A stretch of DNA of 64,000 bases from Pseudodesulfovibrio portus (GTDB lineage Bacteria > Desulfobacterota > Desulfovibrionia > Desulfovibrionales > Desulfovibrionaceae): assembly GCF_026000375.1 (NCBI RefSeq), contig NZ_AP026708.1, positions 2,392,001 to 2,456,000 of the forward strand, written 5' to 3'. The notes under the pieces are model-generated. The model saw nothing but the letters and a program-made list of their open reading frames with translations. It did not search any database and was not told the DNA's origin. Position numbers and translations under genes: made by a program. Within the stretch, counting starts at the first letter, position 1; each line of letters begins with the position of its first letter. Below are positions 14-24,309 of this stretch, piece after piece.

Positions 14-1879
14 ATGTGTGGCATCTGCGGGATACTGTCCCATACGGGCATTTCCCCGACGAGACAATCGCTTGAACCCATGATGGACGCCCTGGCGCAT
101 CGAGGGCCGGACGGGGCAGGTCATTATATTGACGGTCCCATCGGTTTTGGGCATCGCCGCCTGGCCATTCTCGACCTGTCGGACGCCGGGGCCCAGCCCA
201 TGGTGAGCGCGGACCGTTCCCATGTGATCTCCTACAACGGCGAGGTCTACAATTTCCGCGAGTTGCGCCGGGAGCTGCAGGCCGAGGGCCATGCCTTCCG
301 TTCAGCCTCGGACACCGAGGTGGTCCTGGCGGCGTACGCGGCCTGGGGGCCGGCTTGCGTCGAGCGGTTCAACGGCATGTTTGCCCTGGCCATCTGGGAT
401 ACCCGCAGGCAGCGTCTGTTTCTCGCCAGGGACCGATACGGCATCAAGCCGTTGTACTACTGCACCGCCAGGGATTGTTTTGCCTTCGCCTCGGAGCAAA
501 AGGCCTTTTTGTCTATGCCCGGTTTCGAGCGCAGCCTGGATTCCGAGGCCATGCTCGAATATTTCACCTTTCAGAATCTGTTCACGGACAGGACCTTTTT
601 CAAGCGGGTGAAGCTCTTTCCCGCAGGCTGCCGCGGGTTTGTCTCCGCCGGGGGAACGTTGTCCGTCGAGCGTTACTGGGACTACGATTTTCAAGAGCCT
701 GACACTCCCCTGAGCGAGGAGGAGTACATAGAGGAGTTGGACTACCTGTTCAGCCGGGCCGTGAAAAGACAGATGGTCAGCGACGTGGAGGTCTCCGCCT
801 ATTTGAGCGGGGGTATTGATTCGGGGGCGATAACCGCCTTTGCAGCGCAGGAGATTCCCTACATCAAGAGTTTTACCTGCGGGTTCGACATGCACTCGGC
901 CACGGGCCTGGAGGTCGCTTTTGACGAGCGGGAAAAGGCGGAGCACCTGTCCTACCTGTTGAAGACCGAACACTACGAGATGGTCCTCAAGTCGGGGGAT
1001 ATGGAGCGTGCTCTCCCTTCCATCGCCTGGCACATGGAAGAACCCCGTGTCGGGCAAAGCTATCCGAACTACTACGCAGCGTCCCTGGCGAGCCGGTTTT
1101 GCAAGGTCGTGCTGGCCGGGACCGGCGGGGACGAGCTGTTCGGCGGCTATCCGTGGCGCTACTATCGCGCGGTCAACAACGGTTCCTTCGATGACTATAT
1201 CGACAAGTACTACGTCTTCTGGCAGCGCCTGATCCCCAACCGTCAGATCAAGCGGGTTCTTTCGCCGATATGGGACGAGGTCGAACATGTCTGGACCCGG
1301 GACATCTTCGGCGACGTGTTTTCCGACAAGCAGCGCCGTCTGGGGCAGCCCAGGGATTTCATCAACCACTCCCTGTACTTTGAGGCCAAGACGTTCCTGC
1401 ATGGCCTGCTGATCGTCGAAGACAAGCTCTCCATGGCGCATGGGCTCGAGACCAGGGTGCCGTTTCTCGATAACGACCTGGTCGATTTCGCCATGCGGTT
1501 GCCGGTGAGCATGAAGCTCGGCAACCTGGACGAGGTCGTCAGGATCAACGAGAACGAGGCGGGCAAGCTCAAGAAGTACTATCAGAAGACCAGGGACGGG
1601 AAGCTTCTGTTCAGGAAGACTCTTGCCCCTTACGTGCCCGAGACTGTCAGCGACGGCATCAAGCAGGGCTTTTCGGGGCCGGATGCGTCGTGGTTCAAAG
1701 GGGAAAGCATCCGCTATGTCCGGGAGACTCTTTTCAGTCGGCAGGCACTCATTTTTGATTATCTGGACAAGCGAGCCGTACAGGAGCTTGTCATGGAGCA
1801 CCTGGAGGGGAAGGCCAACCGGCGCCTTTTCATCTGGTCCCTGTTGTTGGTTGAGGAATGGTTGAAACACTATGCATGA
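14..1879 (+). CDS. Asparagine synthase (glutamine-hydrolysing) family, copy 1
   Basis: This 621-residue protein is a two-domain glutamine-dependent amidotransferase of the AsnB family. Cys2 in the opening MCGI is the class II glutaminase nucleophile, and the N-terminal domain fills about residues 1-210. The ATP-pyrophosphatase loop SGGIDS lies at 265-270, followed by a GTGGDELFGGY motif. It opens the visible glycan cluster and is followed 15 bp later by the pyruvate-kinase-like gene. Members in such clusters often amidate a sugar carboxylate or a precursor rather than supplying free asparagine; that role here is inferred. Two paralogues lie nearby, at 3464 and 11353. Confidence 0.9.
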   Translation: MCGICGILSHTGISPTRQSLEPMMDALAHRGPDGAGHYIDGPIGFGHRRLAILDLSDAGAQPMVSADRSHVISYNGEVYNFRELRRELQAEGHAFRSASDTEVVLAAYAAWGPACVERFNGMFALAIWDTRRQRLFLARDRYGIKPLYYCTARDCFAFASEQKAFLSMPGFERSLDSEAMLEYFTFQNLFTDRTFFKRVKLFPAGCRGFVSAGGTLSVERYWDYDFQEPDTPLSEEEYIEELDYLFSRAVKRQMVSDVEVSAYLSGGIDSGAITAFAAQEIPYIKSFTCGFDMHSATGLEVAFDEREKAEHLSYLLKTEHYEMVLKSGDMERALPSIAWHMEEPRVGQSYPNYYAASLASRFCKVVLAGTGGDELFGGYPWRYYRAVNNGSFDDYIDKYYVFWQRLIPNRQIKRVLSPIWDEVEHVWTRDIFGDVFSDKQRRLGQPRDFINHSLYFEAKTFLHGLLIVEDKLSMAHGLETRVPFLDNDLVDFAMRLPVSMKLGNLDEVVRINENEAGKLKKYYQKTRDGKLLFRKTLAPYVPETVSDGIKQGFSGPDASWFKGESIRYVRETLFSRQALIFDYLDKRAVQELVMEHLEGKANRRLFIWSLLLVEEWLKHYA

Positions 1880-1894
1880 CAAAAGGGTTTTCCT

Positions 1895-2908
1895 ATGAAG
1901 AAAAAGTTGCTTGTTACCCTTGGCCCCAGTTCCATGAAGCCGGAAGTCATCGGCCAACTGGACTCTCATGACATCTATGTCTACCGGATCAACATGTCCC
2001 ACACGGCCATCGACGTCCTTGAGGGGCAGCTCGATCTGATCCAGTCATCCACGGACGTGCCTGTCTGCATAGACAGCGAAGGCGCGCAGATGCGCAGCGG
2101 CTCCTCGGCCGACGGCGTGGTCGAATATGCAAAGGGCGCGCTTGTCCGCATCCCCTTCGAGCTGTGCGTCAGCGACCCGGAAACCCTGTGCCTGACCCCG
2201 GTGGGCATCGCCCGGCAATTTAATCCCGGCGACGTCCTCAAGGTCGATTTCAACATGGCGCAGTTCAAGGTCGTGGAGCAGAAGGCCGATCACTGTTTGG
2301 TGGAAGTTGTCCACAGCGGTGCGGTGGGCAACAACAAGGCCGCAGACATAAACCGTCCTGTGGAGCTTGATCCCATTACCGACAAGGACCGGCTGGCCGT
2401 GGCCCTGGGGCGCAGGATGGGGATCAGGCATTTTGCCCTCTCCTTTGCCAACACCGGCGAGGGCGTTCGCCAGATGCGCGAGCTGGCCGGACCCGAGGCG
2501 ACCATCATTTCCAAGATCGAGAGCCGCGAGGCCCTGGCCAACCTCAGGGAAATCGCCCAGGCCACCGATGAAATGCTCATCGACCGGGGAGACCTTTCCC
2601 GCAGCGTCCCTCTGGATAAGATACCCTTCCTCCAGAGAAGGGTCGTTTCCATGGCGCGAATCTGGGAGAGGCCGGTCTACGTCGCCACCAACCTGCTCGA
2701 GTCCATGCTGTCGCGGGCCGAGCCGACAAGGGCCGAGGTCAACGACATCGTCTCCACCATTCTCATGGGCGGCAGCGGCCTGGTGCTGGCTGCGGAGACG
2801 GCCGTGGGCGACTACCCGGTCGAAGCGGCGGCCATGACGCGGGCCCTGATGAATCATTGTGACAAGTGGACGAACAACACCACCCTCGACGAAATTCTGG
2901 AGATGTAA
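1895..2908 (+). CDS. Short pyruvate-kinase-like barrel protein
   Basis: The 337 residues match the catalytic barrel of pyruvate kinase. They include the TLGPSS start, RINMSH, ALSFANT, IISKIES, the RGDLSRSVP segment and a VATNLLESML...PTRAEV stretch, then a GDYPVEA-like end. The usual nucleotide-site DTKGPE(I/V)R motif is altered to DSEGAQMR. The roughly 130-residue C-terminal allosteric domain of ordinary pyruvate kinases (about 470 residues) is absent. It lies inside a glycan cluster and overlaps the next start codon by one base (TAATG), so it is probably translationally coupled to the APS-kinase-like gene. It may be a specialised PEP-handling enzyme rather than glycolytic Pyk; its function is not known. 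Confidence 0.8.
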   Translation: MKKKLLVTLGPSSMKPEVIGQLDSHDIYVYRINMSHTAIDVLEGQLDLIQSSTDVPVCIDSEGAQMRSGSSADGVVEYAKGALVRIPFELCVSDPETLCLTPVGIARQFNPGDVLKVDFNMAQFKVVEQKADHCLVEVVHSGAVGNNKAADINRPVELDPITDKDRLAVALGRRMGIRHFALSFANTGEGVRQMRELAGPEATIISKIESREALANLREIAQATDEMLIDRGDLSRSVPLDKIPFLQRRVVSMARIWERPVYVATNLLESMLSRAEPTRAEVNDIVSTILMGGSGLVLAAETAVGDYPVEAAAMTRALMNHCDKWTNNTTLDEILEM

Positions 2909-3450
2909 TGGAGGGGATCAACCAGCCGTTCGCGATCTGGATCATGGGGCCGACCTCGTCCGGCAAGACCACCCTGTCGGAGAAGCTGGTCGGGGTGTTG
3001 CGCAGCAACGATGTCCAGGTCATGCATTTTGACGGGGACGAGGTCAGGAACTTTTTCCCCGAGGACATGGGGTTCAGGCCGGAGGATCGGTTGCGGGTGG
3101 TGGACACCATATGCCACCTCGCCAACAAGTGCGTGGATGCGGGCGTCAACGTGGTCGTCTCGGCCCTGACCGCCAACGAAAACGCACGGAACCGGGCTTT
3201 TTCCTGCGTGAAGAACCTGGCGGTCGTCTACATCGACTGCCCCATAGAGACCTGCATGCAGCGCGACCCCAAGGGGCTGTACAAGAAGGCGGCTGCGGGG
3301 GAGATAGACACCCTCGCGGGGTACAACACCCCCTATGAAGCGCCCGCCCGGTACGAAATCGGCGTGGACACGTCGGTGCTGTCTCCGGACCAGGCCGTGC
3401 AGGCCATCATCGAGGGGTTGGCCGGGTGCCGCCTGAGGAACCCCGCCTAG
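2908..3450 (+). CDS. Adenylylsulfate kinase (CysC)-like protein
   Basis: This is a P-loop kinase of the APS kinase family, 180 residues from the start chosen here. The chosen ATG overlaps the previous stop (TAATG) and has GGAG five bases upstream; an in-frame ATG 42 bases earlier lacks that support. Visible motifs are GPTSSGKTT (14-22), FDGDEVR, GFRPEDRLR and a CysC-typical LYKKAAAGEI...PYEAP tail. APS kinase makes PAPS, the donor for sulfotransferases, and a sulfotransferase gene lies at 13204-14565. Some CysC homologues in capsule loci instead phosphorylate CDP-linked substrates (the Campylobacter phosphoramidate pathway), so the substrate is uncertain. Confidence 0.82.
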   Translation: MEGINQPFAIWIMGPTSSGKTTLSEKLVGVLRSNDVQVMHFDGDEVRNFFPEDMGFRPEDRLRVVDTICHLANKCVDAGVNVVVSALTANENARNRAFSCVKNLAVVYIDCPIETCMQRDPKGLYKKAAAGEIDTLAGYNTPYEAPARYEIGVDTSVLSPDQAVQAIIEGLAGCRLRNPA

Positions 3451-3463
3451 GCGCGGCAGAGAC

Positions 3464-5314
3464 ATGTGCGGTATAGCGGGCATACTCAGGCATGGCGGGC
3501 CGCCTCCGGGAGAGCGGGAGATCGCGGCCATGACGGCGGCTCTCGACCATCGGGGGCCGGACGGTTCGGCCACGCGCGTCCGCGACCGGGTCGCCCTGGG
3601 ACACACCCGGCTTTCCATCATCGATCTTTCCGATGCGGCCAGCCAGCCCATGGTGTCGGAGGACGGCAACCTGGCCCTGACCTTCAACGGCGAAATCTGC
3701 AACTACAGGGAATTGCGCCGGGAGTTGGAGCAGGCGGGCTGCCGGTTCCGCACCACATCGGACACCGAGGTCATCCTCCATGCCTATGCCCGGTGGGGCG
3801 AAGACTGTGTGGGGCGGTTCAACGGCATGTTCGCCTTCTGCATCGCCGACCATGGCGCACGCAGGTTGTTCCTGGCCCGGGACCACGCAGGCATCAAGCC
3901 GCTGTATTATCGGGTTGAAGGCGACTATTTCGCTTTCGCCTCCACTCTGGGCGCATTGCGGAAGGTGGAGGGGCCTCCGCCCCGGGGGAGCTTGCAGAGC
4001 ATCGATTATTTCCTTCGCTATCAGTACATCCCGGCCCCGGACACCATTTATCATTCCGTGCACAAACTGCCGCCCGCGCACACCCTGACCGTGGAGTTCG
4101 ACGGCGCGGTCCAACCGCCCGAGCGTTACTGGCGGCTCGGCTTCAACGGGGACGGGACCACCACCCAGGCCGACGTGGACAGGGTGCTGGCCGCATCGGT
4201 CGACCGGTGGATGACGGCGGATGTGCCCGTGGGCATTTTCCTGTCCGGCGGCATCGACTCGACCTGCGTGGCCTCCCTGGCCTCGCGGATGTCGGACATC
4301 CCCATGAAGGCGTTCAGCATCGGTTTCAGCGAGGCGGGGTACAGCGAGTTGGAGCACGCCGAGAAGGCGGCCCGGACGCTGGGGCTGGAATTTTTCGGGG
4401 AGGTCATCAAGGGAACCACCCTGGAAGTTCTGCCCGAGCTGGTCGAACACTACGGGGAACCCTTTGGCGACGCCTCCGCCATTCCCACCTGGCATGTGTC
4501 CAGGCTCGCGCGGGCGCACGTCAAGACCGTGCTTTCCGGGGACGGAGGGGACGAGGCGTTCGGCGGGTACGATCGATTCTTCGCGTGGGTGAACGGCGGC
4601 AGGTGGAGCCGGGCGAGACGGCGGGAGCTGGCCATGGACTTCCGTGCGGGCCGTCTCAAGTCCATGCGGGCCGTCCTGGACGGGCTGGGCTTCGGCCCCG
4701 AGGCGTGGACCCGTTTCGTCTGCTATACGTTCTATCCGCAGCGGATGAGGCTGTGGCGACCGGAGCACCGCCATCTGCCGGACACGCCGTCATCGCTTTT
4801 CGATGCGGCATACGGCCATGCGAGGAAGGCTTCGGGAATGGGTTATTGCCAATCCATGGATTTCGAGACCTACCTGCCGGGAGCCGTGCTCGCCAAGGTG
4901 GATACGGCCAGCATGTATCACGGGTTGGAAGTGCGTCCGGCCATGCTCGACAGGGAACTCCTCGAGGTGGCGGCCAAGCTGCCGGAGGAGCTGAAATACA
5001 CCGGCGGCACCGTGGGCAAGGTGGCCCTGCAGCGCGTCCTTGAAAACGACTTTTCCCCGGAGTTCATCCGCCGCCGGAAACAGGGCTTCGGCATCCCGCG
5101 CGCCGACTGGACTTCGCCCGGACAGTTGGGCTGGGAGATGCTGACCGACCTGTTGCTGACCGGCAGCTCGCCGCTGTTCGACTGGCTGGAGCGCAGCGAG
5201 GTGGAGCGGCACGTCCGCATGCACGAGCAGGGACTGGACAACTCCCAGCACGTCTGGCTGCTCCTGGTGCTGGCCCTGTGGGCCGAGAAAAACAGCGACA
5301 TCGTGTTTCAGTAG
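3464..5314 (+). CDS. Asparagine synthase (glutamine-hydrolysing) family, copy 2
   Basis: This is the second AsnB-type amidotransferase of the cluster, 616 residues. It begins MCGIAGI with the glutaminase Cys2, and has FNGEICNYRELR and GIKPLYY motifs in the N-terminal domain. The synthetase loop SGGIDS is at 261-266 and SGDGGDEAFGGYDR follows. The gene starts 13 bp after the CysC-like gene and ends at a hairpin terminator, so genes 14-5314 read as one operon. It differs clearly from copies 1 and 3, which suggests separate substrates rather than recent duplication (inference). Confidence 0.9.
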   Translation: MCGIAGILRHGGPPPGEREIAAMTAALDHRGPDGSATRVRDRVALGHTRLSIIDLSDAASQPMVSEDGNLALTFNGEICNYRELRRELEQAGCRFRTTSDTEVILHAYARWGEDCVGRFNGMFAFCIADHGARRLFLARDHAGIKPLYYRVEGDYFAFASTLGALRKVEGPPPRGSLQSIDYFLRYQYIPAPDTIYHSVHKLPPAHTLTVEFDGAVQPPERYWRLGFNGDGTTTQADVDRVLAASVDRWMTADVPVGIFLSGGIDSTCVASLASRMSDIPMKAFSIGFSEAGYSELEHAEKAARTLGLEFFGEVIKGTTLEVLPELVEHYGEPFGDASAIPTWHVSRLARAHVKTVLSGDGGDEAFGGYDRFFAWVNGGRWSRARRRELAMDFRAGRLKSMRAVLDGLGFGPEAWTRFVCYTFYPQRMRLWRPEHRHLPDTPSSLFDAAYGHARKASGMGYCQSMDFETYLPGAVLAKVDTASMYHGLEVRPAMLDRELLEVAAKLPEELKYTGGTVGKVALQRVLENDFSPEFIRRRKQGFGIPRADWTSPGQLGWEMLTDLLLTGSSPLFDWLERSEVERHVRMHEQGLDNSQHVWLLLVLALWAEKNSDIVFQ

Positions 5315-5341
5315 TGCTGCCGACTGGCGGCACGGGTTTTA
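5314..5341 (+). terminator. Rho-independent terminator
   Basis: An 8-bp stem (GTGCTGCC with GGCGGCAC, one G-T pair, loop GACT) is followed by GGGTTTTAT. It starts at the last base of the copy 2 stop codon and closes the first operon. Confidence 0.6.
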
Positions 5342-5377
5342 TCGTGGACATCTAATGGGCAAGACAAGGTACAGACC

Positions 5378-6358
5378 ATGAGCGCACACAGCGAAATAGC
5401 CCCCTTCATCGTTCCCGGCTATAACGAGGTCGTGATCGCGGACAATCTCATCGCCGCGACCGGCCGGGAGTTTTGCGACACGCAGGAGCAGACCGCCGAT
5501 GCCTTCTCCAACAAATGGAGCCGGTTCGACTACGAAGCGGACGGTTTCGAGCGTCGCGTGCAACGGCAGAAGGCGTGGTATCTCAAGCTCTACGGCTTTG
5601 AAAGCGAAGCCGGGCTGAAGGAATATCTCTCGGGCTGCCGGTTCATTCTGGATGCCGGGGCCGGCCTCGGATACAAGGCCGCGTGGTTCGCCGAGCTGTG
5701 CCCGGACGCGATCGTGGTGGCCGCCGACATCTCGGCTTCCGTGGTCAATGCGTCGAAACAGTATCGCCACCTCCCCAACCTCCTGTTTCTTCGGTGCGAC
5801 ATCGGCAACCTGGACATGTTTGCGGACGACGTTTTCGACTATGTCTCCTGCGATCAGGTCATACAGCACACGGCGGACCCGCATGCGACCTTCCGGGAAC
5901 TGGTCCGCGTGACCAAACCCCGGAGGGACGCCTCGGTCTATGTGTACAGGAAGAAGGCGCTTCCCCGGGAGCTTCTGGACGAGTACTTCAGGGACGCGTG
6001 CAAGCAGTACAGCCATGAGGAGCTGATGGAACTGTCCCGGCAGATAACCGAACTGGGAAAAGTCCTGAGCGCCGTGGACCAGGAGGTCGAGATCCCGGAC
6101 ATTCCCGCTTTCGGCATTGAGGGCGGCAAAATGACCGTGCAACGGTTCCTGTATTGGAATTTCATGAAGTGCTTCTGGAACGAGGAGCTGGGCGAGGAAA
6201 ACAGTCTCATGACCAACTACGACTGGTATTCACCGTCCCAGGCCTTCCGCTACTCCGAGGAGGAGTTCCGGGGCTGGATCGAGGAGGCTGGGATGGACAT
6301 CGTCCACTTCCACAAGGAAAAAGCCTGCTATTCCGGACGATTCAAGAAAGTCGAATAA
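5378..6358 (+). CDS. Class I SAM-dependent methyltransferase
   Basis: The 326-residue protein carries a Rossmann methyltransferase core. Motif I is DAGAGLG from residue 92, an AADIS acidic-loop segment follows, and then a CDQVIQHTADP motif resembling post-motif II of small-molecule methyltransferases. The N-terminal 90 residues and the long C-terminal segment are not recognised. It sits alone between the terminator at 5314 and a convergent gene. Given its neighbours, it probably methylates a sugar or glycan precursor; the acceptor cannot be read from the sequence. Confidence 0.8.
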   Translation: MSAHSEIAPFIVPGYNEVVIADNLIAATGREFCDTQEQTADAFSNKWSRFDYEADGFERRVQRQKAWYLKLYGFESEAGLKEYLSGCRFILDAGAGLGYKAAWFAELCPDAIVVAADISASVVNASKQYRHLPNLLFLRCDIGNLDMFADDVFDYVSCDQVIQHTADPHATFRELVRVTKPRRDASVYVYRKKALPRELLDEYFRDACKQYSHEELMELSRQITELGKVLSAVDQEVEIPDIPAFGIEGGKMTVQRFLYWNFMKCFWNEELGEENSLMTNYDWYSPSQAFRYSEEEFRGWIEEAGMDIVHFHKEKACYSGRFKKVE

Positions 6359-6544
6359 CAGGCTTGGGCCATGATGGCGGGCGTGAATCCGCCCCGCACG
6401 AAATTGTTATTCCAAAAGGAATGAATTCTCCCCACTCAAGGCCGGACCGACGGCCGTGGCCATGCCGGTGCTGATTCGGCCCGCACGGCGCAGCGGGCGG
6501 GTTTCCCGCCGTGTCCCGCGAGGAGAGTGCGCAGGTGAAGCCGC

Positions 6545-7753
6545 CTAGGCGCAGGGCTCTTTCGAGCCTTTCCGGTCCACTTCCATGTCGCCGGTCCACA
6601 GGGAATCCGTGATGATCTTGGTCGTGTCGCACCGGTCCTTGTACTTTTCCGCGATACTGATGACTTCCTGCATCAACCCGTTGCCCAGGGTTGTGGGCTT
6701 GAGCCCGAGGCCGAGGAATTTGCCGTTCTCCACCTGGAGCTGGTTGACCGCGTCCTCGCGGCGCGGGTTCTTGTAGTAGCGGACCTCGGCCCCGGTCTGT
6801 TCGGCCACGATCTCGGCCAGGTCGCGCACGGTGCGGGTCTCGGTGGCCTGGTTGAATATCTGTACCCTGTCGCCGTGGGCGGGCGGGTTTTCCACGGCCA
6901 GCCGGATGCATTTGACCGTGTCGGAAATGTGGATGAAGGCGCGGGTCTGTCCGCCGCAGCCGTAGACCGTGAGCGGATGGCCGATGACGGACTGCATGAG
7001 GAAGCGGTTGAGGACCGTGCCGTAGTCGCCGTCGTAGTCGTACCGATTGATGAGGGCCTCATCCAGCATGGTCTCGGCCGTGTTGGTGCCCCAGACCACC
7101 CCCTGGTGCAGGTCGGTGATCCGCAGCCGGTCGTTCTTGTTGTAATAGTAGAACATCAGGGCGTCCTGGGTCTTGGTCATGTGGTAGACGCTGCCCGGGT
7201 TGGCCGGATAGAGGATCTCGATTTCCTGGGGGCCTTCGGACCCTTCCACCACGGCCTTGAGGTAGCCTTCGGGGATGGGCATGCCCGCAGTCCCGTAACC
7301 GTATACGCCCATGGTGCCGAGGTGGACCAGGTGGACGTCCACGCCCGATTCCACGATGGCCGCCAGCACGTTGTGGGTGGCGTTGATGTTGTTGCCCACC
7401 GTGTACCGCTTGCAGAAGCTGTTCTTCATGGAATAGGGCGCGGCCCGCTGCTCGGCGAAATGGATCATGGCGGTGGGGCGGGTCTCCTCGATCAGGGAGA
7501 GCAGCTTGTGGTACTGCACGGCCACGTCGAGGTTGACGTAATTGATCGTTTTGCCCGTCTTGTTCGCCCATGCGGCAATGCGCCGGTGGATGGGCTGGAT
7601 GGGCGTGAGGGACTCGCATTCGAGTTCCACGTCAATTTTACGGCGTGAAAGATTGTCCACGATGGTGACGTCGTAGCCTGCCTGGGAAAAGCCCAGGGCC
7701 GTAGGCCAGCCGCAGAATCCGTCGCCGCCGAGAATTATGACATGTCCGTTCAT
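6545..7753 (-). CDS. UDP-sulfoquinovose synthase-like SDR (SQD1/SqdB family)
   Basis: The 402-residue protein is an extended short-chain dehydrogenase that reads along its whole length like plant SQD1, which converts UDP-glucose and sulfite to UDP-sulfoquinovose. The family-specific dinucleotide motif GGDGFCGW is at 9-16. HFAEQRAAPYSM matches the HFGEQRSAPYSM signature, and LGTMGVYG lies at 145-152. The catalytic Tyr-Lys pair is Y190/K194, and NQATETRTV sits near the C-terminus. It is the most upstream gene of a minus-strand pair with the epimerase at 7819. It could feed sulfolipid or a sulfonated surface glycan; no SqdX-like transferase is certain here. Confidence 0.85.
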   Translation of the reverse strand: MNGHVIILGGDGFCGWPTALGFSQAGYDVTIVDNLSRRKIDVELECESLTPIQPIHRRIAAWANKTGKTINYVNLDVAVQYHKLLSLIEETRPTAMIHFAEQRAAPYSMKNSFCKRYTVGNNINATHNVLAAIVESGVDVHLVHLGTMGVYGYGTAGMPIPEGYLKAVVEGSEGPQEIEILYPANPGSVYHMTKTQDALMFYYYNKNDRLRITDLHQGVVWGTNTAETMLDEALINRYDYDGDYGTVLNRFLMQSVIGHPLTVYGCGGQTRAFIHISDTVKCIRLAVENPPAHGDRVQIFNQATETRTVRDLAEIVAEQTGAEVRYYKNPRREDAVNQLQVENGKFLGLGLKPTTLGNGLMQEVISIAEKYKDRCDTTKIITDSLWTGDMEVDRKGSKEPCA

Positions 7754-7818
7754 TCTACCCGATTCCTCCGAAGTGGTGATGTACTTTTCGGATAAAGCAA
7801 AAGGCGGGCCAATCCGGC

Positions 7819-8745
7819 CTACAGGACATGTTCCCGGAACCAGTCCCAGGTCCGCGCCAAGCCTTCCTCCAGCCCGGTGGACGGGTTGAAGCCGATGGTC
7901 TCGCGGGCCAGGTCAAAGGCGGCGAAGTTGCGCTGCACCTCGCCGGGCCGGGCGTCCCTGAGCACTATCTCATGGTCCGGCCTGCCCCCGGTGGCGGCCA
8001 CGAGGCGGGCCAGCTCAAGGACCGTGGTCTCGTTCCCCGAGGCCAGATGGAGCACCGTGGCGGGCGCGAGGTCGGCCTCGGCCACGCCGGTGATGCCCCG
8101 GCACAGGTCGTCGGTGTACAGGAAGTCGCGGCTGGCCGATCCGTCCCCGAAGAGCACGATGGGCTCATTGGCGTGCACCGCCTTGATGAAGGCCGTGACC
8201 GCGCCCAGCTTGTGGCCGCTGTAGGGCCCGTACACGTTGGCGAAGCGCATGATCTTGGTGCGCAGGCCGTAGGACCCGGCAAAGGCGTTCAGGTAGCCTT
8301 CGCAGGCCAGCTTGCCCGCGCCGTAGGGCGAGATCGGCTTGGGCAGGGATTGCTCGTTCACCGGCGGCTCGGCGTTGCCGATGAGCGCCCCGCCGGTGGA
8401 GGAGAACACGAACTGCTCCACCCCGGCTTCCACCGACGCCTGGAGCATGTTCAGCGTGCCGCCGGGGTTCATGTCGAAATTGGTTTTGGGGTCTTCCACG
8501 GAGGCCACCACCGATCCGAAGGCCGCCAGGTGGATGACCGTGTCCACGCCCCTGACCGCGCGGGCCGCATCGCCCGCGTCGCGGATGTCGCCCTGGACGA
8601 ACTCGACGTCCAGCCCCTTGATGTAGTCCCGGCTGCCCAGGATCAGGCTGTCCAGGACCCGGACCTCGTACTCCCTGTCCAGGAGCATGGGGAGGAGATT
8701 GGCGCCGATGAATCCGCAACCGCCGGTGACAAGAATTTTTTTCAT
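7819..8745 (-). CDS. NAD-dependent nucleotide-sugar epimerase/dehydratase
   Basis: This 308-residue extended SDR is of the UDP-glucose 4-epimerase/dehydratase type. GGCGFIGAN near the N-terminus binds NAD, and the catalytic YGAGK is at 141-145. The ATG at 8745 is chosen because MKKILVTGG is the normal family start and the 19 residues upstream look non-coding. A substrate-specific role cannot be assigned. It sits between the SQD1-like gene and a glycosyltransferase on the same strand, so it probably makes an activated sugar for the same product. Confidence 0.85.
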   Translation of the reverse strand: MKKILVTGGCGFIGANLLPMLLDREYEVRVLDSLILGSRDYIKGLDVEFVQGDIRDAGDAARAVRGVDTVIHLAAFGSVVASVEDPKTNFDMNPGGTLNMLQASVEAGVEQFVFSSTGGALIGNAEPPVNEQSLPKPISPYGAGKLACEGYLNAFAGSYGLRTKIMRFANVYGPYSGHKLGAVTAFIKAVHANEPIVLFGDGSASRDFLYTDDLCRGITGVAEADLAPATVLHLASGNETTVLELARLVAATGGRPDHEIVLRDARPGEVQRNFAAFDLARETIGFNPSTGLEEGLARTWDWFREHVL

Positions 8746-8767
8746 GCGTACAGACCTTTCCGGGAGA

Positions 8768-10021
8768 CTATTGCCCGGCGAGAATTTCTCTGTAGATGGC
8801 AATATATGCGTCCGCCTGGACCGCGACGTCGTATTCGGCCACGGCCTTGTCCCTGCCCGCCCGCGACCACGCGGCGCGGACGGAATCGTCGCCCAGGATC
8901 GTCTTCATGCCCTCGGCCAGGTCGTCGGTTTCAAACGGCCGGGCAAGCCAGCCGTTGGCCTGGTGGTCGATCATGTCCGGCAGGCCGCCGATGTCGAAGG
9001 CCACGCACGGCGTCCCGCAGGCCTGGGCCTCCATGACCGAGAAGGGCAGGTTGTCCATGGTCGACGGGGCGACCAGCACGTCGGCGGCGGAATAGGTCAG
9101 GGCCAGGCTGACGTCGTCCGACAGCTTGGGAATGTAGTGCACGGGCATGCCGAAGTCCGGCGCGTCGGTCGGCCTGGACGAGCCGAGGACCAGGGCCTCC
9201 ACTTGGCCGGAAAAGGCCGAGGCCACGTCGCGCAGGGCCGGGGAGAGCAGGTGGAATCCCTTGCGCGGGTCGCTGGTGGCCGAGAGTGCGCCGAACAGGA
9301 TGAGTTTCTTGTCCTGAGGGAGGTTCAGCAGTTTTCTGGCCTCAGTGCGACCGATCGGTTTGTATACCGATATATCGATACCGCTTTTGACCGCTTCCAC
9401 TCGCTTGTTTTGGAACAGGCGACTGCGTTTGGCGCACTCGGCCAGCCACCTGGAACCGGTAATGATGGTCATTTCCTTGTCCAGCCAGTGCTTCATTTTG
9501 CGTTTCCAGACCCAACTGTCCACATCCGGACCACCGTATTCCCGGGGTCTGTTCTCCGCGGTGTAACCGTGAATGTAGCGCTCAACCTGACCGGCAAGGG
9601 CATAGTGCTCGGCACCGCTGAAAGCCCACTGGTCGGCCAGCCGCCAGACAATGGGCTTTTGAATCGCGGCCACTTCCCTGATCGAGATCATCTCCGAGCC
9701 GATCCAGTGCAACTGGACGATATCGGCGTCAAATTCATTTACCCGTCGTCCATTGCCTGTCGGCAGCATGTTCACCGAATGGATGATCGGGTTGGTGGTG
9801 CGTTGTAAACGGAGCACACCCTTCTCGACCCAGTGGCGAAAGTTCCAGTACCGTCGTTCCCAGACGGATCTTGGTCCCAAGACGGTCGGGTCGTCGCTGA
9901 ATTTCATGGCGCAGAGCATGGTGGAGTCCACGCCCTTGTCGAGCAGCCCGCGGTGCAGCCGGTAGGCCCCGCGCGCCGCGCCGCCCATGATGTCGAGTGT
10001 GGAGAGATAGAGGATTTTCAT
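8768..10021 (-). CDS. Glycosyltransferase, GT4 family
   Basis: The 417-residue protein begins MKILYLSTLDIMGGAARG, a typical GT-B N-terminal start. It ends with the GT4 donor-site region SFSVMEAQACGTPCVAFDIGG. The middle has an SDDVSLALTYSAADVLVAP segment, as in retaining GT4 enzymes. The start at 10021 is preferred; the open frame reaches 57 residues further upstream but those residues are unlike the family. It lies 22 bp upstream of the epimerase and 17 bp downstream of another glycosyltransferase, so the three form an operon. Sugar specificity is unknown. Confidence 0.88.
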   Translation of the reverse strand: MKILYLSTLDIMGGAARGAYRLHRGLLDKGVDSTMLCAMKFSDDPTVLGPRSVWERRYWNFRHWVEKGVLRLQRTTNPIIHSVNMLPTGNGRRVNEFDADIVQLHWIGSEMISIREVAAIQKPIVWRLADQWAFSGAEHYALAGQVERYIHGYTAENRPREYGGPDVDSWVWKRKMKHWLDKEMTIITGSRWLAECAKRSRLFQNKRVEAVKSGIDISVYKPIGRTEARKLLNLPQDKKLILFGALSATSDPRKGFHLLSPALRDVASAFSGQVEALVLGSSRPTDAPDFGMPVHYIPKLSDDVSLALTYSAADVLVAPSTMDNLPFSVMEAQACGTPCVAFDIGGLPDMIDHQANGWLARPFETDDLAEGMKTILGDDSVRAAWSRAGRDKAVAEYDVAVQADAYIAIYREILAGQ

Positions 10022-10038
10022 GGTCGGTCTTTCCTGGC

Positions 10039-11133
10039 TCAACGCGCTTTCAGTTCCTTGAGGATGATATCGTGCAGGAGGGCTATCCTGTCCTTCAGGC
10101 GATGGTCCTTCATGGTACGCTTTTGCCCGGCCTCGGCAATGGCCTTGCGTTCGGCGGGGTGGGCGAGGAGCCAGCGCACTTTGTCGGCGCATTCGTCGGG
10201 TGAGGCGTAGGTCACGATTTCGGTGCCGTCCTCGAACAACCGGTCCAGTTCGGGCACCCGGTCCGTTACCAGGCAGGTGCCCGCGCCCGTGGCCTCGAAG
10301 AGCCGCATGTTCGACGCGCTGGGCAGGGCGTCGATATGGATGTTGAAAGCGGTCTTTGCGCCGGACAGGGCCCGGTACATCGAGATGCCCCAGACGGGCG
10401 GCTTGATGCGCGCGGCCAGTTGCGGAGGGATGCTCGCCTTGACCTCCACGGGGTTGGAGCGGACCTGGAGATCGATGCCCCGGTCCACCAATTCGGTCAG
10501 GAATCGGCCCCGCTCGAGGTGGTAGCCGTTGGACAGGACGATGCCGCCGACGAAAAGGAAATCGGTCTCTTCCAGCGGCCCCATCTCACGGATACGGGGG
10601 AGCAGGGTGTGCTCGAAGGCGTGGTAGATGTGATAGGGGTTGGCCCCGGCTTCCTTGAGGCGGGAGTAGAGCCCGGACTCGTTGGTGATGACGAAGTCCA
10701 GCCCGGCGAAAGAGGGAAAGTGCTCCCGCTCGAAACCGACGCCGATGTTCCCGTGGATAACCCTGACGCCCGGCACGTTGTCCCGCACCAAGGGCAGGAA
10801 CCGGGCGTACATGGGGTAGCTGATGTGCAGGAAGACCACGTCCGGCGAGAGCTTTTTCAGTTGCGCGATCAGCAGTTCCGGGCCCTCGGCGTCAACACCG
10901 TTTTCCCGTGCCCAGGCCCGTTGGAGCGGCTCGGCGCTGTACACGATCTCGTGCGCGTCCGCGCCGAGCTCGTTCAGGTGGCGGGAAATGTGGTTCGCCC
11001 AGACGTGGGTGTCCTGCATCAGGGCCGCGAATTGAGTGTCGTAATCCTGTGCGTCAAGGCCGGGATGGCGCGCGTAGAAGTCGTCGAGGTAGAGCGGCGA
11101 CAGGGTGGTGACTTTGACGTAGGTGTAACTCAT
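10039..11133 (-). CDS. Glycosyltransferase, GT-B fold (CgeB-like)
   Basis: This 364-residue protein resembles the CgeB/DUF3880 plus Glyco_trans_1_2 architecture. Its C-terminal region (PSASNMRLFEATGAGTCLVT...ELDRLFEDGTEIVTYASPDE) is the characteristic part. Such proteins occur in surface polysaccharide and protein-glycosylation clusters. It is the first gene of a minus-strand run, divergent from the asparagine synthase at 11353 with about 220 bp between them. The exact transfer reaction is unknown. Confidence 0.8.
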   Translation of the reverse strand: MSYTYVKVTTLSPLYLDDFYARHPGLDAQDYDTQFAALMQDTHVWANHISRHLNELGADAHEIVYSAEPLQRAWARENGVDAEGPELLIAQLKKLSPDVVFLHISYPMYARFLPLVRDNVPGVRVIHGNIGVGFEREHFPSFAGLDFVITNESGLYSRLKEAGANPYHIYHAFEHTLLPRIREMGPLEETDFLFVGGIVLSNGYHLERGRFLTELVDRGIDLQVRSNPVEVKASIPPQLAARIKPPVWGISMYRALSGAKTAFNIHIDALPSASNMRLFEATGAGTCLVTDRVPELDRLFEDGTEIVTYASPDECADKVRWLLAHPAERKAIAEAGQKRTMKDHRLKDRIALLHDIILKELKAR

Positions 11134-11352
11134 GGCGTTTCAACCGGTTATAAATTCAATCCCGAAGAGCCCCGGCCATAATGTTACTATCGGTTGTTTC
11201 CGAAAAACTATTTATGGAGTGAATGATCTTTTCCGGGTACAACTGCGATTGGAGTACGCGCTGTCCCTGGGCATGTCAATTACGTGCTTGTTTTCAACGG
11301 CTTGGAATGGCGATAACCGGGAATGCGCCCGGATTTTGCAGGAGCTCTTTCC

Positions 11353-13197
11353 ATGTGTGGAATTTTTGGCGTCATAGGGCATATCGATCCGGGCCGGGCA
11401 GCGGCCTGCCGCGATCTCATGGCCCATCGCGGACCGGACGGGGCCGGTCTGTGGACCGGCGACGGGGTGACCCTGGGCCACCGGCGGCTGTCGATCCTGG
11501 ACCTGTCCGACCGGGGCGGCCAGCCCATGGCCTACGCCGATGGGCGATACCGCATCGTCTACAACGGGGAACTCTATAATTTCGTGGAGGTCAGGGCCGA
11601 GCTCGAAGCGCGAGGCGAGACCTTTGTCAGCGACAGCGATACCGAGGTCCTGCTGGCCGCCTACGCCGTATGGGGGCCCGACTGCATGGACCGGTTCAAC
11701 GGCATGTGGGCGTTGGCCATCTGGGACGATGCGGAACGCACCCTGTTCCTGGCCCGCGACCGGTTCGGCAAGAAACCGCTCTTCTACGCCCGCACCGGCT
11801 GCGGCTTCGTGTTCGCTTCGGAGATGAAGGCGATCATGCCGCTCATGGACACAATCGAGCCCCATGACGAGCTGACCCGGTCCAGCCGGCGAATCATGCA
11901 TTACGAGTCCACTGACGAATGCCTGATCAAGGGCATTTCCCGCTTTCCGGCCGGGCATTTCGGCGTCCTCCGGGACGGGGAGCTCAGGCTGACCCGGTGG
12001 TGGAACACCCTGGACCACGTGATGGACGTACCGGACTCCTTCGAGGAGCGGGCCGAACTGTTCCGCGAAATTTTCCTGGACGCCTGCCGTATCCGCATGC
12101 GCAGCGACGTGCCCATCGGCTGCGCCCTGAGCGGCGGTCTTGATTCCAGTTCCGTGATCTGCTCGGTGGCGCATGTGGCGCGGCATGCGTCCGGCAGCCG
12201 CATCAGCAGCGATTTCCAGCATGCCTTCAATGCGGGGTTCCCCGGCACGCCCCAGGACGAGACCCCATATGCCCGGCGGGTGGCCGACCATCTCGGCATT
12301 CCGCTGACAACGCTGACAGTGGACCCGCTGGCGTCCGTGAACGAACTTTACAGCCAGCTCTATCTCTTCGAGGAAATGCATCTGACCATGCCGCTGCCGT
12401 TCATGCTCACCTACGGGGCCATCCGGGAGGGAGGCGTCACGGTCACCCTGGACGGGCACGGCACGGACGAGTGCTTTGCGGGATACCTGTTCACCGCCAA
12501 GGAGGCCCTGGCCGATGCCGGTTGCAACATCCGGGCGGCCAGGGGGGTGTTGGACGCCTTCTACTACGGGCGGCCCCAGTCCACCCAGTTCCCCGCGACG
12601 CCGCGCTGGAAGTTCGTGCTCGACTTTCATCTCCAGAGGCTCTCCCGGGCGCTCAAGGGGGCGGGGGGCGTCTCCTGCCGGGACAGCGGGCATCCGCGCT
12701 GGAAGGAACTGGATCACCTGACGCGTATCCTCTACGTGGCCACGCACGAGTCGATCCTGCCGACCCTGCTGCGCAATTATGACCGGTACTCCATGGCCAA
12801 CGGCGTGGAGATTCGGATGCCGTTCATGGACCACCGCATCGTCACGCTGGCTTTTTCCCTGGCCTGGGACGACAAGGTGCGGGACGGGTACACCAAGGCC
12901 GTGGTGCGCCGGGGCGTCGACGGCATCGTGCCGCCGGACATCACCTGGCGGCGGACCAAGATCGGTTTCAATTCTCCGGTGGTGGACTGGATGAAGGGGC
13001 CGCTCAAGGAATTCTTTCTCGACGAGGTCCACTCTCAGGCATTCGGTCAGAGCGCTCTGGTGGACCGGGAGCTTGCCCGGACCCGGCTGGAGGGCGTCAT
13101 CGCCGATCCGGACGCCACCTACGCCCAGGGCGAGGCGGCGTGGACGGCCCTGTTGCCCTATTTCTGGGAGCAGGCCATGCTCAAGGGGCGGCGTTAG
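11353..13197 (+). CDS. Asparagine synthase (glutamine-hydrolysing) family, copy 3
   Basis: This is the third AsnB-type amidotransferase, 614 residues from the ATG at 11353. That start places Cys2 at the mature N-terminus (MCGIFGV), which the glutaminase chemistry needs, and has GGAG nearby; a longer frame from 11323 would block it. The synthetase loop SGGLDS is at 260-265 and DGHGTDECFAGY takes the place of the usual GDGGDE motif. It converges on the sulfotransferase gene with only 6 bp between the stops and no visible terminator. Confidence 0.9.
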   Translation: MCGIFGVIGHIDPGRAAACRDLMAHRGPDGAGLWTGDGVTLGHRRLSILDLSDRGGQPMAYADGRYRIVYNGELYNFVEVRAELEARGETFVSDSDTEVLLAAYAVWGPDCMDRFNGMWALAIWDDAERTLFLARDRFGKKPLFYARTGCGFVFASEMKAIMPLMDTIEPHDELTRSSRRIMHYESTDECLIKGISRFPAGHFGVLRDGELRLTRWWNTLDHVMDVPDSFEERAELFREIFLDACRIRMRSDVPIGCALSGGLDSSSVICSVAHVARHASGSRISSDFQHAFNAGFPGTPQDETPYARRVADHLGIPLTTLTVDPLASVNELYSQLYLFEEMHLTMPLPFMLTYGAIREGGVTVTLDGHGTDECFAGYLFTAKEALADAGCNIRAARGVLDAFYYGRPQSTQFPATPRWKFVLDFHLQRLSRALKGAGGVSCRDSGHPRWKELDHLTRILYVATHESILPTLLRNYDRYSMANGVEIRMPFMDHRIVTLAFSLAWDDKVRDGYTKAVVRRGVDGIVPPDITWRRTKIGFNSPVVDWMKGPLKEFFLDEVHSQAFGQSALVDRELARTRLEGVIADPDATYAQGEAAWTALLPYFWEQAMLKGRR

Positions 13198-13203
13198 CTC
13201 CCG

Positions 13204-14565
13204 TCACCACCAGCGGACGAGTTCCTGGTTGGGGAACATCACGGCCGTGAAGTCCGCGAATCTCCGAAGTCCCCGCGCTTCCAGATCCTTGCTTATCTCC
13301 GAATAGTAGGAAAAGGACGTGATCAGAATGAGGTCGTATTCGCTCAGGTCGGCGTCTTCCGTCTTGATGATCGGGATGCCGTCCAGGGTGCCTGCGGCCC
13401 CCTTGTCCAGGATGGCGGCAAAGGCGAACCGCTCGCCCAGCCCGCGGGCATGGAATTCCTTGAGGAACGCCTTGGTCGCGCCTCCGGCGGAATAGAGTGC
13501 GAGACGCATGTCGGCCAGATCGGGCCGGGCCTCCAGCAGTCCGTTCCACGAGGGATAGTCGAACCGGACATCTTTCTCCATCCGGTCGAACCGGTAGAGG
13601 TAGAGGTGTTCGTCGTTCGGGGCCTGCTCGAACTCCCCGTATCCTTCCAGCCGGATCGAGCGCGGGCCGTCCGCCTCCGGGAAACGGATGCCCAGCGCGC
13701 CGACGGATGCCAGGTCGATCAGCACATCGCCTTCGTGTATCACCGTTTCATCCGAGAGGTGGAGTCTCGCACCGAGAAGCTGCGCTCCCCTGCCGTTGCC
13801 GTTGATCCGCAGCCGGACCTTGCGGTCCTTGTATACGGGATACCCCAGTTCGTCGATGATCGGAAACAGCTCGTTGAGGTCGAGCAGGTCCAGGGTCGGC
13901 AGTTGCCGCCTCCACCGCTCCGTGACCGATCTGTCCGGCTTGATGTCCCGGGCGTTCAGGTCGGCCAGGTCAAGGGCCGGGGAGACGTTGTGGGAAATAC
14001 GCCGGGCCAGGGGCGTGAGCATGTCGTCAGTATAATCGACGTCCAGGAACTCGCAGAGAGATTGCAGGGTTTCCACCGGTCGGGTGGTCAGGTCCTCGTA
14101 GCGCAGGATGTGGTGGGGCGCGTTTGAGTCTTCATAAAAGCGGGTGAGGGCCGCGTAGGCGGTCCTGAACGCCATGGGTGAACTGAAGATGCCCGTGCGC
14201 AGCGTGGAAATCAGGGTATCCCTGGGGTCGCGGATGATGTGCACGAACTTGGCCTCGGGATAGAGGGAGTGCAGGTAGGCGGCGTGGGCGGCGTTCTGGC
14301 AGCCGATGGTCTGGAGTCCGAAGCGGCCTTCTTTCTTCAACAGTTCCCTGTGCATGACGCGGACGGCATCGTCCCACCCCGCGTCATTCCCCCGGGTGAA
14401 GTAGGCTGTGTACAGTTTCTTGCCTTCGTTCATGGAGGGCAGCCACCAGCATTCGTCGGTGAGCTCCATCCGGCCGGACGCATCGATGATGGTCTGCAAC
14501 AGGGTAGTGCCCGACCGCTGCATTCCGACGAGAAAGAATTCCGGGTCCGTGTAGGTGCGCTTCAT
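13204..14565 (-). CDS. Sulfotransferase with extra C-terminal domain
   Basis: The N-terminal half is a PAPS-type sulfotransferase: FFLVGMQRSGTTLL near residues 10-23 holds the 5'-phosphosulfate-binding loop, and IIRDPRDTLIST is the usual 3'-phosphate-binding Arg/Ser region. After about residue 270 comes unrelated sequence. It ends in a Rossmann-like tail (LALYSAGGATKAFLKEF...DLILITSFSYYSEI) of the kind appended to glycan-modifying methyltransferases. The start at 14565 is chosen for its AGGAGG site; total length is 453 residues. It would consume PAPS from the CysC-like enzyme at 2908 (inference). Confidence 0.85.
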   Translation of the reverse strand: MKRTYTDPEFFLVGMQRSGTTLLQTIIDASGRMELTDECWWLPSMNEGKKLYTAYFTRGNDAGWDDAVRVMHRELLKKEGRFGLQTIGCQNAAHAAYLHSLYPEAKFVHIIRDPRDTLISTLRTGIFSSPMAFRTAYAALTRFYEDSNAPHHILRYEDLTTRPVETLQSLCEFLDVDYTDDMLTPLARRISHNVSPALDLADLNARDIKPDRSVTERWRRQLPTLDLLDLNELFPIIDELGYPVYKDRKVRLRINGNGRGAQLLGARLHLSDETVIHEGDVLIDLASVGALGIRFPEADGPRSIRLEGYGEFEQAPNDEHLYLYRFDRMEKDVRFDYPSWNGLLEARPDLADMRLALYSAGGATKAFLKEFHARGLGERFAFAAILDKGAAGTLDGIPIIKTEDADLSEYDLILITSFSYYSEISKDLEARGLRRFADFTAVMFPNQELVRWW

Positions 14566-24222: not shown

Positions 24223-24309
24223 GCCAGGGTGGCGGAATTGGTAGACGCAGCGGACTCAAAATCCGCCGGTTTCGCGACTGTGAGGGTTCGAGTCCCTCCC
24301 CTGGTACCA
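24223..24309 (+). tRNA. tRNA-Leu (anticodon CAA)
   Basis: The 87-nt sequence, CCA included, folds as a class II tRNA. The acceptor pairs GCCAGGG with CCCTGGT. The anticodon arm GCGGA/TCCGC encloses loop CTCAAAA, giving anticodon CAA (leucine, UUG codons). A long variable arm and the GGTTCGAGTCC T arm follow. CCA is encoded. Its 3' half is the insertion point of the island and is repeated at 41858. Confidence 0.95.

Follow-up and report, generated by a model that had tools for sequence, protein, structure and literature searches.

Analysis of a 64,000 bp stretch of the Pseudodesulfovibrio portus genome (hereafter the window; G000:C1:2392001-2456000, from a single contig of 3.40 Mb) revealed a putative surface-glycan region at 14–14,565 bp. 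This region contains an operon in which a pyruvate-kinase-like (PK-like) gene overlaps a gene of the CysC family of adenosine 5′-phosphosulfate (APS) kinases. The initial annotation had named six genes here, three asparagine-synthase-type (AsnB), one CysC-like, one sulfotransferase and one SQD1-like. All six were found where it had placed them, each with the expected domains, and the third-position GC content of their frames (0.78–0.87) matched that of the local coding sequence. The PK-like gene, a methyltransferase, a sugar epimerase and two glycosyltransferase genes had not been listed. The operon and the sulfotransferase gene of the region were as follows:

14–1879, + strand: AsnB1, asparagine-synthase-type amidotransferase, the first operon gene as seen (PF00733 and GATase_7; TIGR01536, 446 bits against a cut-off of 267)
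1895–2908, + strand: PK-like protein, barrel (A and B) domains only, 337 amino acids (PF00224, 188.5 bits)
2908–3450, + strand: CysC/APS-kinase-family protein (PF01583, 126.6 bits against a cut-off of 21.1)
3464–5314, + strand: AsnB2, asparagine-synthase-type amidotransferase (PF00733 and GATase_7; TIGR01536, 403 bits, over the cut-off)
5378–6358, + strand: S-adenosylmethionine-dependent methyltransferase (PF08241, 59.2 bits)
13,204–14,565, − strand: sulfotransferase-family protein (PF13469, 82.0 bits, and PF00685, 45.6 bits, both over the cut-off)

The order on the + strand is AsnB1, PK-like, CysC-like, AsnB2 and methyltransferase. The stop codon of the PK-like gene and the start codon of the CysC gene share one base (TAATG) and AsnB2 starts 13 bases past CysC; the methyltransferase gene probably belongs to the same operon as AsnB1–AsnB2. 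All three AsnB-type proteins of the window combine a class II GATase domain, with an N-terminal MCG, and PF00733.

The PK-like protein has the PF00224 barrel domain and the PK fold, and its TIGR01064 score (224.9) did not reach the cut-off of 306.4. In a structure model of its 337 residues, residues 1–329 aligned to PKs of at least 460 residues, with 23–30% identity to the 50 entries shown. Among PK-like proteins with a named source, the nearest (81% identical) was from Pseudodesulfovibrio. Residues were compared between 200 family sequences and 18 canonical PKs, the latter all from relatives in the order to which P. portus belongs. This showed that R31, N33, S35, H36, D60, R67, K207, E209, R231, G232, D233 and T265 were kept in 199–200 of the 200 PK-like sequences. 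These positions are the PK catalytic residues for the phosphate of phosphoenolpyruvate (PEP), for Mg and for proton transfer. One Arg and one Lys contact the PEP phosphate in PK, according to an excerpt of PMC10338316. The ARGDLG loop of PK was replaced by D-R-G-D-L-S in the PK-like family (Leu in 198 and Met in 2 of the 200). Position 117 of PK, usually Glu or Lys, was Gln in all 200; Gln at this position has been reported among PKs of Crenarchaeota (PMC4374775, in part). Judged from these sequences, the PK-like protein is a member of a distinct family separate from the canonical PKs. An ordinary short PK was ruled out, as the protein was set apart from canonical PKs with a support of 100. 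A PF00224 query of 18 carrier genomes found a second, full-length PK in 17, the exception being L117, whose genome is an Omnitrophota record, and with the separate PK of the P. portus genome this ruled out a glycolytic PK.

Related loci were taken as the best 80 of 206 from an alignment-based search, a search with the single PK-like protein having returned no relative, and with the window these made 81 loci. This sample leans to close relatives and metagenome-derived genomes, and its loci are not independent (eight are from rhizobia). A CysC-type gene was present at 45 of the 81 loci, always on the strand of the PK-like gene; it lay within 90 bases of the PK match at 18 of these and 1.1–1.4 kb downstream, approximately the length of a sulfurylase domain, at 20 of the other 27. 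An ATP-sulfurylase match was present at 53 loci, both genes were found at 28 and either at 70, compared with 0 of 18 canonical-PK loci of the window's relatives (Fisher p ~1e-12, relatedness ignored). The association of the PK-like family with sulfate activation is strong. Among the 25 carriers with a sulfurylase and no CysC near the PK-like gene, 22 had an APS-kinase match elsewhere in the genome, which may serve other pathways.

The PK-like and sulfurylase parts were also found on one chain. A long frame was present in 48 of 78 family rows, mostly encoding PK, PUA_2 and ATP-sulfurylase parts. A Pfam scan of nine long proteins found complete PF00224, PF14306 and PF01747 matches in five, and in those of L075 and L086 all three were present with an incomplete sulfurylase match. 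With one fusion as the query, 2479 homologues were found at E ≤ 1e-100 among 7995 scored; all 120 listed of these carried PF00224, PF14306 and PF01747. The fusion is probably present in some two thousand database proteins, 120 of the 2479 having been seen, and where source names were given they were 'pyruvate kinase' or 'ATP sulfurylase'. At L056 (Desulfovibrio sp. OttesenSCG-928-I05), genes for CysC, the PK-like protein, a sulfurylase and a Na/H-exchanger-type antiporter follow in sequence, and those for CysC (PF01583, 129 bits) and the PK-like protein overlap by four bases (ATGA).

A tree from which three near-duplicates were dropped, and in which 7 of the 18 canonical PKs were included, placed the PK-like sequences in one group against the canonical PKs (SH-aLRT 100). 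The window protein paired with a Pseudodesulfovibrio sequence (support 95) inside a group of 25 short forms (support 93). Long and short forms required four changes on the tree, or three without L059, which is short only through a contig end; fusion or fission therefore seems to have occurred repeatedly. Bacterial carriers were found in Pseudomonadota, Thermodesulfobacteriota, Nitrospinota, Omnitrophota, Myxococcota, Planctomycetota, Verrucomicrobiota, Acidobacteriota, Bdellovibrionota, Chloroflexota and Actinomycetota, and archaeal carriers in Thermoplasmatota; many of the carrier genomes are metagenome-derived. A phylum scan at E ≤ 1e-60 found the PK-like protein only in the P. portus genome (1 of 395), a strict threshold that may miss diverged fusions. 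A plasmid search returned two rhizobial records whose match covered 96% of the query; no annotation was present there in the record inspected. In a relative of the same genus (G001), a trio of sulfotransferase, PK-like and CysC genes lies on a separate 17.5 kb contig (L121), which is a hint of mobility.

The CysC protein of the window narrowly missed the TIGR00455 cut-off (133.0 against 138.7; scored, as for PF01583, on the longer frame from 2866 bp). The module CysC of L116 passed it (143.1) and that of L100 did not (133.5). At least three kinds of CysC partner the PK-like protein. The window protein keeps GDxxR, GF, DR and DPKGLYKKA, has lost the Asn of ENxRR and has SALTAN in the FISPYR region; a second kind keeps this Asn and loses the preceding Arg. 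The Nitrospina CysC that is paired with a fusion has ordinary motifs, and that of L056 keeps the R, the N and a PYRETR loop. The compared positions correspond to APS contacts of the fungal enzyme. An alignment of the sulfurylases of 120 fusions and L046 with 31 canonical sulfurylases (30 from the order of P. portus, and L056) showed that the Gln of the QxRN motif was His in 121/121 of the fusion type and in 0/31 of the canonical set; the four solved sulfurylases aligned have Gln. The L056 sulfurylase, encoded beside a PK-like gene, is of the Gln type, so the His is not required for partnership with the PK-like protein.

The P. portus genome encodes two PF01747 (ATP sulfurylase) proteins, neither in or near the window. 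The first (427 amino acids) is of a kind common in its order and is presumed to be dissimilatory. The second is a Sat-CysC fusion (L007:9262-10953; G000:C1 near 3197422) with a low-scoring sulfurylase part (123.9 bits), which reads QAGRPLHRADR where others have QxRNxxHxxH. It adjoins two GDP-sugar-type short-chain dehydrogenase/reductase (SDR) genes on the opposite strand, named by eye. A third CysC-like protein (58 bits; L008:8555-9139; G000:C1:370632-371120) is encoded near a sugar-kinase-like open reading frame (ORF; named by eye). Similar-scoring matches (~47–81 bits) occur in approximately 46 of 60 genomes, and the protein is probably not an ordinary APS kinase. The initial annotation had held that dissimilatory sulfate reducers have little need for 3′-phosphoadenosine 5′-phosphosulfate (PAPS). 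This did not agree with the PF01583 match over the cut-off in 58 of 60 genomes (P. portus included), the best E-value being ≤2e-53 in 53 of them. As APS kinases are this common in its relatives, the CysC-like gene was rejected as a sign that P. portus is an unusual sulfate reducer.

At 76 loci, as many as two non-core genes flanking the PK-like gene on either side were scanned (256 proteins), leaving out the window, the near-duplicates L081, L082, L104 and L114, and neighbours over 700 amino acids; counts are from the 25 families shown per set. The control was 62 neighbours of canonical PKs, one of the 18 loci having been lost as no PK was found. Sulfotransfer_3 was found in 19 of the 256 neighbours (8 + 11), Sulfatase in nine (7 + 2) and TauE in at least five (five in the first set; not among the families shown for the second). 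The control had Sulfotransfer_1 in one neighbour and Sulfotransfer_3 in at most 1/62, giving a one-sided Fisher p of 0.07 for the Sulfotransfer_3 excess if the control has one and 0.014 if it has none. Na_H_Exchanger was found in 2 + 12 neighbours and was the top family of the second set, a count inflated above all by related rhizobia. At the rhizobial loci L074, L100, L105, L108–L110 and L113, an antiporter-like gene comes after those for a PK-Sat fusion and CysC, and in several of them a PqqD-like ORF (named by eye) also follows.

We propose, with a probability of roughly 55%, that the operon at 14–6358 bp is a PAPS-synthesis module in which CysC has a dedicated PK-like partner and feeds sulfotransferases that sulfate a surface glycan. 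The computed basis for this is the family identity of the PK-like protein, its co-occurrence and fusion with sulfate-activation proteins, its retained PK catalytic residues and the separate ordinary PK. Sulfate activation is uphill, the known pulls being pyrophosphatase, APS kinase or a GTPase; at equilibrium the sulfurylase reaction strongly favours ATP, and the dead-end complex of APS kinase holds ADP and APS. The APS would be made by an ATP sulfurylase whose gene lies elsewhere in the P. portus genome, and in many other carriers by the sulfurylase to which the PK-like domain is fused. The PK-like protein would move the phosphate of PEP to the ADP from APS kinase, restoring ATP, and this removal of ADP would pull the unfavourable APS step. 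PAPS would then be supplied to sulfotransferases such as that at 13,204–14,565 bp, a likely user of PAPS, and the putative surface glycan made by the surrounding genes would become sulfated. PEP-driven removal of ADP is the most economical reading because of the fusion and the retained catalytic residues. The suggestion of the initial annotation that PAPS is made for O-sulfation is the best reading and is supported by context, with the CysC-like gene in a sulfate-activation setting and a sulfotransferase-family gene in the region. In an engineered cascade that used human PAPSS1, regenerating ATP with PK reportedly kept ADP from inhibiting APS kinase, and almost no PAPS peak was seen without PK; a dead-end complex of APS kinase was also named (excerpts of PMC9885120).

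Several observations weigh against this proposal. Neither CysC nor a sulfurylase was found at 11 of the 81 loci, although two of these (L039 and L059) stop directly behind the PK match and two others (L048 and L052) start at it. The Myxococcota long forms of L060 (9890–11,839 bp) and L080 (1757–5488 bp) gave a PUA_2 match and no PF01747 match; both are nonetheless among the 53 loci counted with a sulfurylase match, and their sulfurylase part looks degraded or replaced. Five residues fixed in 200/200 PK-like sequences were absent from the 18 canonical PKs, namely Q65 (Lys in all 18), D230 (Ala), S235 (Gly), R236 (Leu/Val) and N266 (Gln), and with these changes in the active-site region the substrate may be something other than PEP or ADP. 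The divergence of the window CysC at the presumed APS contacts, and likewise the His of the fused sulfurylases, might mean that the oxyanion is not sulfate. The sulfotransferase excess near PK-like genes is suggestive only. As the changes in the PK-like protein, sulfurylase and CysC leave room for altered chemistry, our confidence in the exact reaction is moderate.

A tentative variant is that, in a widespread machine made up of the PK-like protein, ATP sulfurylase and APS kinase, PEP directly drives the synthesis of PAPS or of a PAPS-like donor with another group, the reshaped PK-like site coupling PEP cleavage to the sulfurylase–kinase pair; CysDN, which couples GTP hydrolysis, is an analogue. 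A regulatory or structural role for the PK-like protein, in which it would bind PEP (or some other phosphate) and would tune or scaffold the sulfurylase and APS kinase without turnover, is rather doubtful. The presence of the PK barrel part alone and the fixed changes around the RGDL loop would suit this role, but the catalytic residues, kept almost without exception in sequences from bacteria and archaea, would be needless in a non-catalytic domain. Activation of a different oxyanion or nucleotide is unlikely: the PK-like protein would make or use a phosphorylated substrate, the sulfurylase-like protein would couple it to a nucleotide, the CysC-like protein would add a 3′-phosphate and sulfotransferase-like enzymes would transfer the group. 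This would resemble the phosphoramidate route of Campylobacter, where the substrate of a CysC relative is a CDP compound. It is favoured by the changes in all three proteins (D230, Q65 and N266; Gln to His; the CysC positions of the window kind) and by the scores of the PK-like and sulfurylase parts, which are below the NCBIfam cut-offs. However, the neighbours include sulfotransferases, sulfatases and TauE, L056, from the same bacterial family as P. portus, pairs the PK-like protein with a Gln-type sulfurylase and a CysC of conserved motifs, a Nitrospina fusion is paired with an ordinary-motif CysC, and the L116 CysC is over the TIGR00455 cut-off. That PAPS is supplied in an ordinary way for a sulfated glycan, with the PK-like gene an unrelated metabolic gene present by chance, is very improbable. 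APS kinases are common in the relatives, and a described surface-glycan cluster includes genes for sulphate adenylyltransferase, adenylylsulphate kinase and sulphotransferase (PMC8743553, in part). Chance is nevertheless disfavoured by the sulfurylase fusion in every listed homologue, and was rejected on the 70/81 versus 0/18 loci; the overlap with CysC in both the window and L056 also argues against it.

Between the operon and the sulfotransferase gene, the region encodes a second block:

6545–7753, − strand: SQD1-like (UDP-sulfoquinovose-synthase-like) SDR protein (310 bits to 1i24 SQD1; NF041015, 325)
~7819–8745 (start inferred), − strand: NAD-dependent sugar epimerase/dehydratase (PF01370, 177.7 bits)
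8768–10,021 (start inferred), − strand: glycosyltransferase, GT4 type (PF00534, 75.7 bits)
10,039–11,133, − strand: glycosyltransferase (PF13524, 107 bits)
11,353–13,197 (counted from an internal ATG at 11,353), + strand: AsnB3 (PF00733, 234.8 bits)

This block (6545–13,197 bp) recurs in G023 and G019, both of the same genus, in the same order and with 60–89% identity; there, an additional ORF separates the two glycosyltransferase genes. In L210 and L211, identity was 79–82% for the epimerase, 76–79% for the GT4-type glycosyltransferase, 60% for the other glycosyltransferase and 76–79% for AsnB3. The 19 kb examined in G023 and G019 contained no match to PK, CysC, methyltransferase or sulfotransferase and no further AsnB, and their whole genomes contained no close PK-like copy. 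In the alignment of the SQD1-like protein with Arabidopsis SQD1 (1i24), gtmg and yhmtk were aligned, which we take to be the SDR Thr and YxxxK; NF041015 was not reached (cut-off 575). SQD1-like proteins were found in 21 of 95 genomes (P. portus included), five of them (again including P. portus) being of the window kind (63–100% identical) and the rest 36–41% identical. Those of the order, including L201–L204, fall into two kinds approximately 40% alike, and the product of the window kind may not be sulfoquinovose. The initial annotation had combined the whole of 14–14,565 bp into one polymer or glycolipid with O-sulfate, sulfonate and uronamide groups. This is compatible with the PK-like module, and the SQD1-like, AsnB-type, CysC-like and sulfotransferase genes are indeed clustered. 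It is improbable, as two relatives have the block with neither the PK-CysC operon nor the sulfotransferase gene beside it, which speaks against sulfate and sulfonate on one polymer, and as the SQD1-like protein is below the NF041015 cut-off.

The glycan region continues upstream, outside the window, with a fourth AsnB, a cytidylyltransferase, two radical-SAM proteins, a sulfotransferase-family gene and an acetyltransferase; a second sulfotransferase-family candidate there scored below the cut-off. The two radical-SAM proteins are adjacent (L005:8857-11951) and one has a B12-binding domain over the cut-off. Within the window at 24,223–40,000 bp, a tRNA-Leu gene (24,223–24,309 bp) is followed by low-GC DNA (40–47%, against ~58–65% before it), which is probably an integrated island. 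Its ORFs, named by eye, include a 675 amino acid protein with a P-loop ATPase motif, a nuclease-like protein and, further on, AAA- and VWA-type proteins.

Known PAPS synthases and sulfate-activation operons (the Sat-CysC fusions 2gks and human PAPSS1; CysDN/CysC) likewise join a sulfurylase and an APS-kinase-family protein in one operon or one chain; here, a PK-barrel protein is added, either on the sulfurylase chain or encoded by a gene that overlaps that of the kinase. Compared to pyruvate kinase (PykF, PKM), the PK-like family has the barrel only, carries the fixed Asp, Ser, Arg, Asn and Gln changes and occurs beside a separate PK. The in-vitro PAPS cascade also partners PK with sulfurylase and APS kinase activities, but it was engineered from separate enzymes (PMC9885120, in part), whereas the pairing here is natural and often on one chain. 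The Campylobacter HS:19 sulphation cluster (cysD, cysN, cysC and sulphotransferase) similarly places sulfate activation inside a surface-glycan region (PMC8743553, in part); the term pyruvate kinase is absent from the main text of that paper. In the open-access papers returned, no title or opening of an abstract described either a fusion of PK and sulfurylase or the involvement of a PK-like gene in sulfate activation.

What is new here is that PK-like proteins accompany sulfate activation, and the reaction that it would carry out is our deduction. The names 'pyruvate kinase' and 'ATP sulfurylase' given to the fusions mislead metabolic models. As named isolates are among the carriers (Mesorhizobium amorphae, Ensifer and Halobacteriovorax), the hypothesis is testable. 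If it is true, a natural PK-like partner would be another way to energise sulfate activation, in many phyla and in archaea, and would bear on the microbial synthesis of sulfated glycans.

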